From Gimesia sp. (GTDB taxonomy: Bacteria; Planctomycetota; Planctomycetia; Planctomycetales; Planctomycetaceae), in assembly GCA_002706765.1 (NCBI GenBank), contig PAJV01000010.1, forward strand, positions 91,171-155,170: a stretch of 64,000 nt of DNA. The letters run 5' to 3'. Of this stretch, positions 25,323-28,954 are shown piece after piece. How positions within the stretch are numbered: position 1 is the first letter of the stretch; each line of letters opens with the position of its first letter. The translations under genes were made by a program, and so were the position numbers. The notes below the pieces were generated by a model that had not been told where the DNA came from, did no database searches, and was given only the letters and a program-made list of their open reading frames with translations.

Positions 25323-26846
25323 TCAGTTTTCCAGTTTTGCAGCTGCTTTGTTGATGGCCTGCAGATAGGCTTTGGCACTGGATTCGATGATGTCTGTACT
25401 GACGCTGCGGCCAGTGAATAATTCACCATTGATGCGAACTTCGACGCGTACCTCTCCCTGGGCATCCTTACCGCTGGAAACACTGCCGACGTGGTACTGG
25501 TCCAGTACAGCAGTAATGCCTGAGATGCGTTCCAGTGCCCTGAAGACGGCATCAACAGGGCCATCTCCGGTAGCTGCATCACAGTGGATTTTGCCTGTTT
25601 CATCTGACAGTTCAATCGTCGCGGTCGCGATGGTGCCGGTTCCGGCGGAAGTGTGGAAGCGGGCAATTTTCCATTTCTCCGGTGCATCGGTGACCTGGTT
25701 CTCGATTAAGGCGACAATGTCGGAATCGTAGATTTCCTTTTTCTTGTCAGCCAGCGTGATAAACTCATTGAAGATCCGCTCAAATGTTTCATCATCCAGG
25801 GTATGGCCCAGGGTCTGAATTCGATCGCGGAATGCATGACGGCCACTGTGTTTGCCGAGGACCAGGTTAGTGCCTACATAACCAACATCTGCAGGAGACA
25901 TGATTTCATAGGTTGTGCGTTCCTGCAACATGCCGTGCTGATGAATGCCTGCTTCGTGTGCAAAAGCGTTTCTCCCCACGATCGCTTTGTTGCGTTGTAC
26001 CGACATCCCGGTGACTGTCGAGACCAGATGGCTGATCGGATACAGGCGTTTTGTATTGATATTAGTGTGTACGCCGTAATAGTCCGCGCGGGTTTTCAAC
26101 GCCATTACGACTTCTTCCAGTGCGCAGTTTCCAGCACGTTCCCCCAGGCCATTGATCGTACATTCCACCTGGCGGGCGCCCGCTTCCACAGCGGCGAGGC
26201 TGTTTGCGACGGCGAGTCCCAGGTCATTGTGACAATGCGTGCTGATGATGGCCTGCTCTATGTTTGAAACATTTTTTTTCAACGTGGTGATGACATCATG
26301 GAAATGGGCGGGAGTCGCATAACCGACGGTGTCGGGAATATTGACGGTGCTGGCTCCGGCTTCGATGGCGCGTTCCACCACTTCACAGAGGAAATCTTTC
26401 TCGGTTCGGGCAGCGTCCTCTGGTGAGAATTCGATATCCGGGCAGTAGTCTCGGGCTCGCTTGACCATTTCGACCGCCGTCTCCACGATCTGTTCTTTCG
26501 TCATTTTGAGTTTATGCTCCATGTGGATGGAACTGGTTGCGAGGAAGACGTGAATCCGCGACTGCTTTGCCTCTTTTAATGCTACCCAGGCCCGGTCGAT
26601 ATCGTCTTTTCGGCAGCGGGCCAGAGCGCAGATGGTCGTCTGATCGCCAAATTCATTTGCAATTTTGCGAACGGATTCAAAATCGCCGGGAGAGGCAATC
26701 GGGAAGCCTGCCTCAATGATATCGACCCCCAGTTTGACAAGTTCCCGGGCGACTTTCATCTTTTCCGAAGTGGTCATACTGCAGCCAGGTGACTGCTCAC
26801 CGTCTCTCAACGTGGTGTCGAATATCTTTACTGTATCATTGGACAT
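25323..26846 (-). CDS. leuA: 2-isopropylmalate synthase
   Basis: A 507-residue enzyme that condenses 2-ketoisovalerate with acetyl-CoA, the committed step of leucine synthesis, in the cytoplasm. DTTLRDGEQSPG (10-21) opens the HMGL-like TIM barrel, and HCHND at 204-208 supplies two metal ligands. GLGERAGNCALEEVV and the QHGMLQ / GKHSGRHAFRD segments are typical of LeuA. The C-terminal 130 residues form the LeuA dimer domain that binds leucine for feedback inhibition. GGAG lies 8 nt before the ATG. A leucine-codon leader peptide and a terminator hairpin precede it, so transcription is probably attenuated by charged tRNA-Leu. Confidence 0.97.
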   Translation of the reverse strand: MSNDTVKIFDTTLRDGEQSPGCSMTTSEKMKVARELVKLGVDIIEAGFPIASPGDFESVRKIANEFGDQTTICALARCRKDDIDRAWVALKEAKQSRIHVFLATSSIHMEHKLKMTKEQIVETAVEMVKRARDYCPDIEFSPEDAARTEKDFLCEVVERAIEAGASTVNIPDTVGYATPAHFHDVITTLKKNVSNIEQAIISTHCHNDLGLAVANSLAAVEAGARQVECTINGLGERAGNCALEEVVMALKTRADYYGVHTNINTKRLYPISHLVSTVTGMSVQRNKAIVGRNAFAHEAGIHQHGMLQERTTYEIMSPADVGYVGTNLVLGKHSGRHAFRDRIQTLGHTLDDETFERIFNEFITLADKKKEIYDSDIVALIENQVTDAPEKWKIARFHTSAGTGTIATATIELSDETGKIHCDAATGDGPVDAVFRALERISGITAVLDQYHVGSVSSGKDAQGEVRVEVRINGELFTGRSVSTDIIESSAKAYLQAINKAAAKLEN

Positions 26847-26920
26847 TGGGTTTCTCCGCGAGTCAATTTCCGCTCCCGATCAGGGAGCTAATGAGAGACC
26901 AGAATAGTACCAGCAGGCAA

Positions 26921-26957
26921 AATAAAAAACCCTGAGGCCGATCTGGTCTCAGGGTTT
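26921..26957 (-). terminator. Attenuator terminator in the leuA leader
   Basis: On the minus strand AAACCCTGAGACC (26957-26945) pairs with GGCCTCAGGGTTT (26939-26927): 13 bp with one G:U, loop of 5 nt, followed by TTT, A, TTTT. It lies 75 nt upstream of the leuA start codon, so it must stop or pass RNA polymerase before leuA. Confidence 0.88.
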
Positions 26958-27035
26958 CGCTGTTTTTTGATTAACAATCGTACAAAGAACCTAAGACCTG
27001 GCTTAAAGAAGCAGGTTTCGTAGCAGGCTCAGGTT
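26945..27035 (-). promoter_or_regulatory. Competing RNA pairings of the leuA attenuator
   Basis: Segment 1 (27035-27024, AACCTGAGCCTG, inside leader codons 8-11) can pair with segment 2 (27000-26988, CAGGTCTTAGGTT) over 12 bp with one bulge and one G:U. Segment 2 can instead pair with segment 3 (26957-26945, the 5' arm of the terminator) through GGTCTTAGG/CCTGAGACC. Pairing 1:2 leaves the terminator free to form; pairing 2:3 is an antiterminator. A ribosome stalled on the Leu codons would cover segment 1 and favour 2:3. Confidence 0.8.
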
Positions 27036-27056
27036 TAGTAGATTGTGAATGTGCAT
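27003..27056 (-). CDS. leuL: Leucine-rich leader peptide of leuA
   Basis: A 17-codon open frame on the minus strand, too short for usual gene calling: MHIHNLLNLSLLRNLLL, then TAA. Eight of 17 codons are leucine (CTA, CTA, CTG, CTG, CTA, CTG, CTT, CTT). It ends 45 nt before the attenuator terminator and 156 nt before leuA. Its role would be to sense charged tRNA-Leu through ribosome stalling, as in enterobacterial leu operons. No strong Shine-Dalgarno is visible before its ATG; the upstream sequence is A-rich. The symbol leuL is by functional analogy. Confidence 0.82.
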   Translation of the reverse strand: MHIHNLLNLSLLRNLLL

Positions 27057-27117
27057 TTTATTTTGTTTTTTCAACTGGTTTAAACTGGACAGTCTTAGAC
27101 TGCCTTACCGCTCTGAC

Positions 27118-27146
27118 AATTTACCTGCTCAATCGACCATGGTCAA
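27118..27146 (-). promoter_or_regulatory. Candidate promoter for the leuA leader
   Basis: On the minus strand TTGACC (27146-27141) and TAAATT (27123-27118) are separated by 17 nt, 5/6 and 4/6 matches to the sigma-70 consensus. Transcription would begin about 55 nt before the leader-peptide ATG, inside the gap between the sulfite reductase gene and leuL. Confidence 0.4.
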
Positions 27147-27232: not shown

Positions 27233-28954
27233 TTATTTCGCAGCGAGTCCTGCTTTCTCCTGTAATGCTTCTTTCCCCATTCTGTGACAGAAATCACCAA
27301 AGGATTCTCCTGCCTGACGCTCTTCCTTGAAGCATTCCAGAAGTGGAGAAATTCGACCGGTGATTTCGGCTAAGGGAACCATATCGTCATACACAAAGGC
27401 CAACCTGTTGCCGAGCGAGTTTCCACCCAGGTAAAGTGTGTATTTTCCGACGGCCCTTCCTACGAGTCCAATATCGGGAACATAGGGGCGGGCACAACCG
27501 TTTGGACAACCGGTGGTGTTGACGGAGATTTTTTCGTTTTCCAGCCCCAGACGTGCCAGTTCCTCCTCGAATTCGGTAATTAAAGCAGGCATGACCCGTT
27601 CCGATTCAGTGATGGATAATCCACACATGGGGAGTGCGGGGCAGGACATGGAAAATCGACGAATCAAAGTGAGTTCATCCGCTTTTTTCATCCCGTGATC
27701 GGTCAGGATCTGATCAATTTCGGAACGCAGTGAGGGGTCAATGTCACAGAAGATGACACTTTGTTTTGCGGTGATGCGGGCATTGAATCTGTAGGTTTCC
27801 AGGATCTTTCGGAGACCGGCTTTGATCCGAAGCTCTCCTTCATCCTTGATGCGGCCATTTTCGATGTTCACCCCGAGAAAGAGCTTGCCATCTCCCTGTT
27901 CATGCCAGCCCATATGGTCTTCCATACCCGTGACTTCAATATCACGTGGGGCTGCTATGCTTGAACCATAATGTGCTTCCACTTTCTCACGGAACGTTTC
28001 GATGCCCAGGTTATCGACCAGATACTTCATACGCGCCAGTTTACGGTCTTCACGGTTTCCGAGGTCACGTTGTACTTTGACAACCGCTTCTGCAACGGCG
28101 AGTACGTGCTCGTTTTCGACGAATCCCAGTGGTTTCCCCAGGGCGGGATAGGTTTTTTTATTACTGGGAGTGACTCCCATACCGCCACCGACGTAAAAGT
28201 TATAACCGACGATAGCGTCATTTTCGACAATGCCCAGCAAGCCGATATCCTGTGTGTAGATATCGACACAGTTGTCTTCGGGCAGGGCGATCCCGATTTT
28301 AAACTTGCGCGGTAGATAGGTTTTGCCGTAGATAGGCTCCTCGACGGGCTGGTATGCGGCTTCATTGGTTTGATTGCCTTCTTCGTCGGTAATCCACAGG
28401 TCGAAGTAGGCGGTGGTTTTGGGGCGCAGGTGTTCTGCCAGCGCGTAAGCCATATCCTGCATGGAGTCGAAGATGGCATTGTTTTTATAAGGGGCAGGGC
28501 AGGCCATCACGTTTCGGTTGACATCGCCACAGGCTGCCAGCGTGGTCAGTTTAGTATCGTTGATCCCTTTGATGGCTGCTTTGAGATTGCCTTTGATCAC
28601 GCCATGTAACTGAAAGCCCTGTCGCGTGGTGAGTCTGACCGTTCCATCTCCATACTTGTCACACAGGTTGAGTTCAGCCAGGAATTGATCTGCAGTCACT
28701 TTACCGCCGGGCACACGAGTACGGATCATGCAACTGAATGCTTTTCCTTTGGGTGTACCATCCGGATTTTTGGCTTTTCTGAGGTCACGATCATCCTGCT
28801 GATAGGTACCGTGATGTTTCAACAGTTGTGTCGAATCGCCGGAGAATTCATCACTGTCGTTGAGCAACTCTTCCGCGATGGTACCACGCAGCTGATGACT
28901 GCCTTCTTTGAGAAACTCCATTTTGGAAAGCTTGGGGCCTTCTTGGGATGTCAT
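27233..28954 (-). CDS. cysI: Assimilatory sulfite reductase hemoprotein (CysI/NirA family)
   Basis: A 573-residue siroheme/4Fe-4S protein, counted from ATG 28954, which has AGGA 8 nt upstream; an in-frame TTG at 28981 is less likely. TTRQGFQLHG (109-118) is the siroheme-side signature. The cluster ligands are Cys438 and Cys444 (CPALPMC) and Cys483 and Cys487 (TGCPNGCARPY). The family reduces sulfite to sulfide with six electrons; the related NirA branch reduces nitrite, but the length and the GTYQQDDRDLR start fit sulfite reductase. With the cysH product it completes reduction of activated sulfate. No flavoprotein subunit (cysJ) is in the window, so ferredoxin may be the donor. Confidence 0.88.
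   Translation of the reverse strand: MTSQEGPKLSKMEFLKEGSHQLRGTIAEELLNDSDEFSGDSTQLLKHHGTYQQDDRDLRKAKNPDGTPKGKAFSCMIRTRVPGGKVTADQFLAELNLCDKYGDGTVRLTTRQGFQLHGVIKGNLKAAIKGINDTKLTTLAACGDVNRNVMACPAPYKNNAIFDSMQDMAYALAEHLRPKTTAYFDLWITDEEGNQTNEAAYQPVEEPIYGKTYLPRKFKIGIALPEDNCVDIYTQDIGLLGIVENDAIVGYNFYVGGGMGVTPSNKKTYPALGKPLGFVENEHVLAVAEAVVKVQRDLGNREDRKLARMKYLVDNLGIETFREKVEAHYGSSIAAPRDIEVTGMEDHMGWHEQGDGKLFLGVNIENGRIKDEGELRIKAGLRKILETYRFNARITAKQSVIFCDIDPSLRSEIDQILTDHGMKKADELTLIRRFSMSCPALPMCGLSITESERVMPALITEFEEELARLGLENEKISVNTTGCPNGCARPYVPDIGLVGRAVGKYTLYLGGNSLGNRLAFVYDDMVPLAEITGRISPLLECFKEERQAGESFGDFCHRMGKEALQEKAGLAAK

Follow-up and report, generated by a model that had tools for sequence, protein, structure and literature searches.

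The window, i.e. the whole 64,000-nt stretch of Gimesia sp. DNA analysed here, carries on its minus strand the 2-isopropylmalate synthase gene leuA, whose product scores 780.7 bits against NCBIfam NF002086 (cut-off 532). The same-strand gene upstream of it encodes a sulfite reductase hemoprotein subunit (NF010029, 740 bits, cut-off 457) and ends at position 27233. Between the two, the original prediction had placed a 17-codon minus-strand frame with eight leucine codons (27056-27003), three segments able to pair in mutually exclusive ways and a 13-bp terminator with a U-tract, all before leuA. The frame is found at exactly this position, and the segments and the terminator are present as described when the region is folded (Table 1). 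Segment 1 (27035-27024) reads AACCTGAGCCTG and segment 2 (27000-26988) reads CAGGTCTTAGGTT; AAACCCTGAGACCAGATCGGCCTCAGGGTTT forms the core of the terminator (26957-26927), ahead of TTTATTTT, and its 13 pairs are arranged as 11+2 in the fold. The start codon of leuA at 26846 lies 80 nt past the terminator end. The 139-nt leader as a whole folds with -42.9 kcal/mol (z -5.2), and none of 200 shuffled sequences folds equally well.

Table 1. Features of the leuA leader region in the window and of the cimA leader in the same genome.
Feature	Position	Strand	Basis and remarks
Leader peptide ORF MHIHNLLNLSLLRNLLL	27003..27056	minus	ATG..TAA; 8/17 codons Leu (CTA 3, CTG 3, CTT 2); kept in relatives
Segment 1, within leader ORF, pairs with segment 2	27024..27035	minus	Fold; duplex -16.9 kcal/mol, z -3.1 in the window
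Segment 2, partner of segment 1 or segment 3	26986..27000	minus	Duplex energies, swap test, ribosome-placed fold
Segment 3, partner of segment 2 (antiterminator) or segment 4 (terminator)	26945..26959	minus	Co-varies with both partners
Intrinsic terminator and U-tract TTTTTTATTTT; 3' arm is segment 4	26919..26957	minus	Fold, 13 pairs; detector dG -17.4 kcal/mol
leuA, 2-isopropylmalate synthase, putatively regulated gene	25323..26846	minus	NCBIfam NF002086 and TIGR00973, both over cut-off
Candidate sigma-70-type promoter TTGACC-17-TAAATT	27118..27146	minus	Pattern scan, 9/12 matches
Ile-rich leader MLSVSNIVCISGIIIIGEITDSP and terminator before cimA (L083)	contig C76:86415-90935	minus	Window's genome

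In a generic pattern scan the terminator hairpin is absent from the minus-strand listing and appears on the plus strand only, where an A-C mismatch becomes G-T. Such scans perform at chance level here, with two terminator-like sites found on the plus strand versus 1.2 expected and two promoter-like sites versus 1.0 expected. The case for an attenuator therefore rests on folding and comparison, and its significance derives from the combination of elements and their conservation rather than from any single terminator or promoter site. The candidate promoter, which is presumably the one in use, lies in a region where a block GGGTTGACC...GGTAAATT/GGTAGATT is visible by eye in the four nearest relatives (L001-L004). 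No clear Shine-Dalgarno site was seen by eye ahead of the leader ATG in the window.

Two neighbouring observations concern the surroundings of the leader. In the gap between terminator and leuA (26915-26872, minus strand) a further block, TGCTGGTACTATTCTGGTCTCTCATTAGCTCCC-TGAT-CGGGAGC, is kept in the same four relatives, and a small hairpin at this place shows apparently compensatory changes across them (both by eye). A second, shorter gene resembling 2-isopropylmalate synthase, with 41% identity over residues 6-383, lies on contig C35 of the window's genome (L082); it stays under the cut-offs of the NCBIfam models shown, and no attenuator was found in the stretch read there.

Conservation was assessed with a detector that searches for frames 8-45 codons long, with a terminator hairpin and T-run no more than 110 nt beyond the end of the frame, and that rates each frame by its leucine content, a call being defined by a score P ≤0.02 together with a hairpin of ≤-13 kcal/mol. 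As this P is the best value over all frames and terminators, it is a score and not a calibrated probability, and shuffled sequences and other stretches were therefore used as controls. From 527 confirmed LeuA loci the best 80, all with organism titles, were taken; L036 is without upstream sequence, and the other 79 together with the window make up the 80 upstream regions tested. A leucine-rich frame plus terminator was called in 62 of them. Dinucleotide shuffling of these regions gave two calls in 800 sequences, and 279 other 700-nt stretches from these loci gave none, so that the conserved frame expected in relatives does exist; 18 of these near loci are without a call. The arrangement is retained down to about 60% LeuA identity, and eight out of eight further genomes of the same genus carry it as well. 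The leader peptides themselves differ in sequence, as exemplified by MRSLLLNLSLLLLPT, MPNLLLSLLLLLPPSSRP and MLALNLNSLLLLLLAGGKA, which indicates that a design is conserved rather than one DNA stretch.

Within the genus, 15 rows were compared (one, L325, duplicates L002). Leucine is found at positions 7, 9, 11, 12 and 16 in all 15, with synonymous changes at four of the five. Of the 15, only the window has a TAA stop in the leader at this place (27005-27003); ten rows have CAA and four have CCA at this codon, which extends their frame by four codons to a TAG inside segment 2. Either position of the stop should leave segment 2 covered by the terminating ribosome. The rare codon CTA makes up 20-22% of the leucine codons in leaders versus 0-2% in leuA itself. 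In the Salmonella leu leader CUA is a control codon, and its replacement by CUG lowered the sensitivity (PMC1183508); the CTA usage of the leaders described here may also have a structural cause.

The helices were examined in 68 regions with P ≤0.07, the window included. Shuffling segment 2 weakens its duplex with segment 3 (median z of the native duplex -2.4; z < -2 in 42/68). Furthermore, in a swap test the mean antiterminator energy with the own partner is -15.57, versus -12.62 (sd 0.32) with permuted partners, a value reached in none of 5,000 permutations; the same holds, with 0/5,000 each, for the Planctomycetales-like group (37 regions) and the others (31) taken separately. Variants of segment 3 are matched by changes in both segment 2 and segment 4. 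The pair table from which this was read is built on energy folding and leans toward pairing, a bias of which the swap test is free. The co-varying stems that the original prediction expected in relatives are thereby borne out. The pause helix of segments 1 and 2 is prominent in the window (z -3.1) and less so across the set, where the mean z is -1.18 and z < -2 is reached in 15/68 rows including the window.

Alternative structures were also folded with a ribosome placed codon by codon, assuming a footprint of 12 nt downstream and ending the RNA before segment 4. With the A site at codons 5-15, the helix of segments 2 and 3 amounts to -18.2 to -16.6 kcal/mol; with the A site at codon 16, at codon 17 and at the stop it drops to -10.9, -5.8 and -4.1 kcal/mol, respectively. 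When segment 4 is included, the terminator is the minimum-energy fold for every ribosome position tried. Since the terminator is lower in energy in each of these cases once segment 4 has been made, antitermination must be kinetic, and a kinetic choice between terminator and antiterminator also holds for known attenuators. The proposed alternative folding is thus reproduced with respect to the antiterminator/terminator switch as a function of ribosome position, but the helix of segments 1 and 2 stands out only in the minority of rows given above.

From these data it is very probable that the region constitutes a ribosome-mediated transcription attenuator which senses charged leucyl-tRNA and controls leuA. 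The transcript would start near 27111. If leucyl-tRNA is scarce, a ribosome translating the leader would stall at the leucine codons within codons 6-15 (codons 6, 7, 9, 11, 12 and 15), leaving segment 2 free to pair with segment 3 ahead of the synthesis of segment 4; this pairing would pre-empt the terminator and leuA would be transcribed. If leucine is plentiful, the ribosome would reach codons 16-18 and cover segment 2, segments 3 and 4 would form the terminator, and transcription would end before leuA. In an untranslated leader segments 1 and 2 would pair and the terminator would form as well, giving basal termination. The enterobacterial leu/his/trp type of design suggested originally is thus well supported by the conservation, the co-variation and the modelled folding geometry.

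Beyond the nearest relatives, an even sample of the phylum was drawn (147 genomes), from which 49 LeuA upstream regions were read, namely 29 best new loci and 20 fetched. Twelve of 48 regions were called (one of the 49 is without gene motif), distributed as 7/7 in the same family, 2/2 in the same class and 3/39 outside the class. Order-like names used in the following were assigned from the nearest named loci. In Pirellulales(-like) genomes a leader is called in 70 of the 92 read and uncalled in 22. Among loci nearest a Gemmata LeuA 10/30 are called, and among Isosphaerales-like regions 2/12; since the detector demands a TTTT run, it misses hairpins with broken U-tracts in both groups. By eye, the Gemmata group (L294-L302, L310) displays a leucine-rich frame ..RLLxPPRG.. 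or similar, followed by a GC-rich hairpin with an interrupted U-tract, located about 50 nt before leuA in Gemmata-like regions and predicted to be a terminator of uncertain efficiency. Several other Isosphaerales-like regions likewise show, by eye, a frame, a segment 2 of the type GTCTTAGG and a hairpin with a broken U-tract.

A second conserved element is observed between the terminator and leuA, 50-160 nt before the gene, in 15 Pirellulales loci (L042, L044, L047, L048, L050, L052, L054, L058, L059, L061, L062, L069, L075, L076 and L078). With its GCCGACC/GGTCGGC-like hairpin, it can be read as encoding a short peptide of the form ..(S/T)RAxLVLPxPTxGR.. or similar, and it may act as a further leader peptide or in the control of translation.

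The genome of the window contains a further attenuator-like arrangement in front of the citramalate synthase gene cimA (TIGR00977, 680.5 bits, cut-off 450), in this case with an isoleucine-rich leader (Table 1). Similar isoleucine-rich leaders precede cimA in eight of nine relatives read (L140-L148), the exception being L143. Leucine and isoleucine were then scored upstream of both genes in ten genomes (the window's own, seven of the same family and two of the same class), in all of which cimA passes TIGR00977. Upstream of leuA, leucine scores in 10/10 genomes (P ≤0.014) and isoleucine in 0/10 (P ≥0.09). Upstream of cimA, isoleucine scores in 9/10 (P < 0.05; exception G077 with 0.12) and leucine in 1/10 (G022, 0.012). 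In shuffled sequences the isoleucine score reaches P ≤0.05 in 7/300 and P ≤0.005 in 2/300 cases. The codon identity of the leader hence follows the pathway, with leucine before leuA and isoleucine before cimA, and the pair of switches provides an internal control for specificity. No isoleucine-rich leader was found in ten further LeuA-like regions elsewhere in the phylum (11 read, one without gene motif), which were taken without a family test. Within 800 nt before the profile matches of ilvB, leuC, trpE and hisG in the window's genome no attenuator was found; as the profile matches serve as gene starts here, a leader further upstream could be missed.

In the order Pirellulales the leaders display an additional peculiarity. 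Downstream of leuA and on the same strand, a tRNA-Leu(UAA) gene is present in 22 of the 80 named loci, all of Pirellulales type (e.g. L040, L043, L050 and L060), at a distance of 6 nt to about 1.8 kb from leuA when all sets are counted. Among called leaders of the named set, a TTA codon occurs in 19/19 linked versus 3/43 unlinked loci, two of the unlinked ones (L014 and L021) having less than 700 nt of downstream sequence. The 92 Pirellulales genomes mentioned above (30 best loci, 60 picked from the list and two others, out of 139 with a match) furnish an order-wide set of 66: from the 70 called leaders three with less than 700 nt downstream were removed, as was L193, left out as uncertain with 757 nt downstream and TTA present. 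In this set TTA is found in 21/22 linked versus 6/44 unlinked leaders (Fisher 6e-11, kinship ignored).

A first table, restricted to about 1.45 kb, had given 18/18 linked versus 10/49 unlinked leaders with TTA. On re-checking 20 genomes over 9 kb (nine with TTA, 11 without), three TTA leaders and one non-TTA leader became linked, and one non-TTA genome with its tRNA-Leu(UAA) gene 8.5 kb off was kept as unlinked. To offset the bias of this re-check towards TTA leaders, the remaining 28 unlinked non-TTA leaders were also read downstream, to 3.5 kb or, for four whose contigs end earlier, to 2.0-3.1 kb; none proved to be linked in that range, and the table and the tree test remained unchanged. On the LeuA tree the tRNA linkage changes ten times. 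Of eight independent tree pairs, an average of 5.5 have TTA differing in the same direction as the linkage, none in the opposite direction, and 2.5 show no difference in TTA (median p 0.031, range 0.031-0.125, from few events); tree pairs of the named set go the same way in 3/3, too few for significance. In two complete genomes the linked gene is the sole tRNA-Leu(UAA) among 20 DNA-similar places in both.

That TTA leaders track a downstream tRNA-Leu(UAA) gene suggests that the operon senses a tRNA which it supplies itself. The simplest reading would be a leader that senses how well a tRNA supplied in step with leuA is charged, with putative co-transcription of the two genes. Against this reading, a terminator-like hairpin lies in 7/22 of the spacers between leuA and the tRNA gene. 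Directly before the tRNA gene, six Rhodopirellula-type loci show TTGGAG-17-TAAGAT or a motif near it (by eye); owing to these promoter-like hexamers tRNA-Leu(UAA) may have its own promoter there. The spacers of L059, L060, L062, L068, L070 and L072 share a block like CTATTCTTGGAGG..GGTAAGATAGCG, which could be a hairpin or such a promoter (TTGGAG-17-TAAGAT) of the tRNA gene (by eye).

Three other explanations of the leuA leader were weighed. The hairpin might merely terminate the upstream sulfite reductase gene and the leucine-rich frame might have arisen by chance; that gene does end on the same strand ahead of the leader, and terminator-like sites are frequent by chance. However, among loci with a called leader the nearest upstream ORF is on the opposite strand in 26/56 and on the same strand in 30 (five more loci with short upstream sequence were left out), so that the terminator cannot be explained by an upstream gene alone: frame, antiterminator and terminator remain with leuA when the neighbour changes. 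The rarity of the arrangement in shuffles and other stretches speaks against chance, and a gene-end terminator has no need of a co-varying segment 2. As the sole explanation this is ruled out by the conservation with differing neighbours and in our estimate very improbable, even though read-through transcription from upstream could contribute.

Control at the level of translation, with the leuA ribosome-binding site occluded and no termination step, is comparably improbable. It has a precedent in Actinobacteria, where a run of leucine codons before leuA has been proposed to pair with the Shine-Dalgarno box of leuA (PMC1262725), and a second small hairpin is seen by eye between terminator and leuA in the nearest relatives of the window. 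Against it stand the T-run terminator that separates leader and gene in the called regions, the window among them, and the co-variation of segment 2 with the terminator arm. Least probable is a leucine- or tRNA-binding riboswitch or a T-box in place of ribosome sensing. Terminator/antiterminator switches are common to T-boxes and riboswitches, but a riboswitch needs no reading frame rich in the cognate codon, which is kept here besides the helices; moreover, the codon identity shifts to isoleucine before cimA, and UUA goes with the linked tRNA-Leu(UAA). The candidate was dropped for want of an Rfam match: at the gathering threshold, Rfam release 15 yields nothing in the window and only tRNAs in 20 loci, the best match to an amino-acid leader family being Phe_leader with 16 bits versus 55 needed.

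We conclude that the arrangement before leuA is real and conserved and very probably a classical leucine attenuator with an ordinary mechanism. A more far-reaching reading extends it to the whole class: Planctomycetia would have inherited ribosome-read attenuators with pathway codons (Leu for leuA, Ile for cimA); in Pirellulales the leuA attenuator would act as a tRNA homeostat, its UUA leader being read by the tRNA-Leu(UAA) encoded behind leuA, so that a shortage of the charged tRNA raises both biosynthesis and tRNA; and the presence in much of the class, including Gemmata, would imply ribosomes close behind RNA polymerase. Given the promoter-like hexamers of the six Rhodopirellula-type loci, which lower its probability, we put this combined reading forward tentatively, at somewhat below an even chance. 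The association of UUA with tRNA-Leu(UAA) would be an apparently new type of link, in which the control codon tracks a tRNA gene behind the regulated gene.

If this is true, Planctomycetia have long made wide use of classical ribosome-mediated attenuation to control the synthesis of amino acids. As attenuation needs a ribosome translating the nascent RNA near RNA polymerase, each leader amounts to an in vivo test of transcription-translation coupling, here in bacteria with condensed nucleoids and complex membranes, including Gemmata; the presence of the attenuator in many relatives suggests that planctomycetes translate RNA during its transcription. For Gemmata obscuriglobus, transcription and translation have been reported to be spatially separated (Gottshall 2014, as cited in PMC5287468 and PMC5394234).

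The original prediction knew of no described leucine attenuator in Planctomycetes. Among the matches listed from the open full-text literature none was found, nor was an isoleucine or UUA/tRNA-Leu(UAA) attenuator of planctomycetes recognised there, although the comparative survey of Lopatovskaya 2010, which PMC4833913 cites, could hold a prediction for the phylum. The available passages of PMC4833913, which mentions planctomycetes and attenuation, concern leader-to-gene distances and contain neither 'leucine' nor 'leuA'. Naville and Gautheret 2010 wrote that they were aware of no demonstrated leader-peptide attenuator beyond Proteobacteria and Actinobacteria, and contributed one from Firmicutes; counts of 'planctomycet' and 'Pirellula' in that paper gave none (PMC2965389).

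Among known systems, leuL of enterobacteria controls leuA by mutually exclusive antiterminator and terminator structures. The planctomycete leader resembles leuL of E. coli and Salmonella in having a short frame with leucine control codons including the rare CUA (PMC1183508). In contrast to this likeness, no sequence relation was detected, a leucine-leader family being absent among Rfam matches up to E 10; segment 2 of the planctomycete leaders begins before the end of the leader frame in 51/68 rows; and leuC of the window's genome sits on a different contig from leuA. The ilv-leu attenuator of S. aureus likewise features a leucine-rich peptide, a terminator and a proposed stalling of the ribosome, but there the peptide precedes ilvD of the branched-chain amino-acid operon, whereas the planctomycete leader precedes leuA (PMC5794164). 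The LEU element of actinobacterial leuA shares the run of leucine codons before leuA and differs in employing a pseudoknot and Shine-Dalgarno pairing instead of an intrinsic terminator; leader mutations of Streptomyces leuA were reported as inconsistent with classical attenuation, as cited in the same source (PMC1262725). The design principle is the same as in the leader-peptide attenuators of Proteobacteria, Actinobacteria and, for his, Firmicutes: the mechanism is known, and it is the phylum, the Ile/cimA twin and the link to a tRNA gene that appear to be new.
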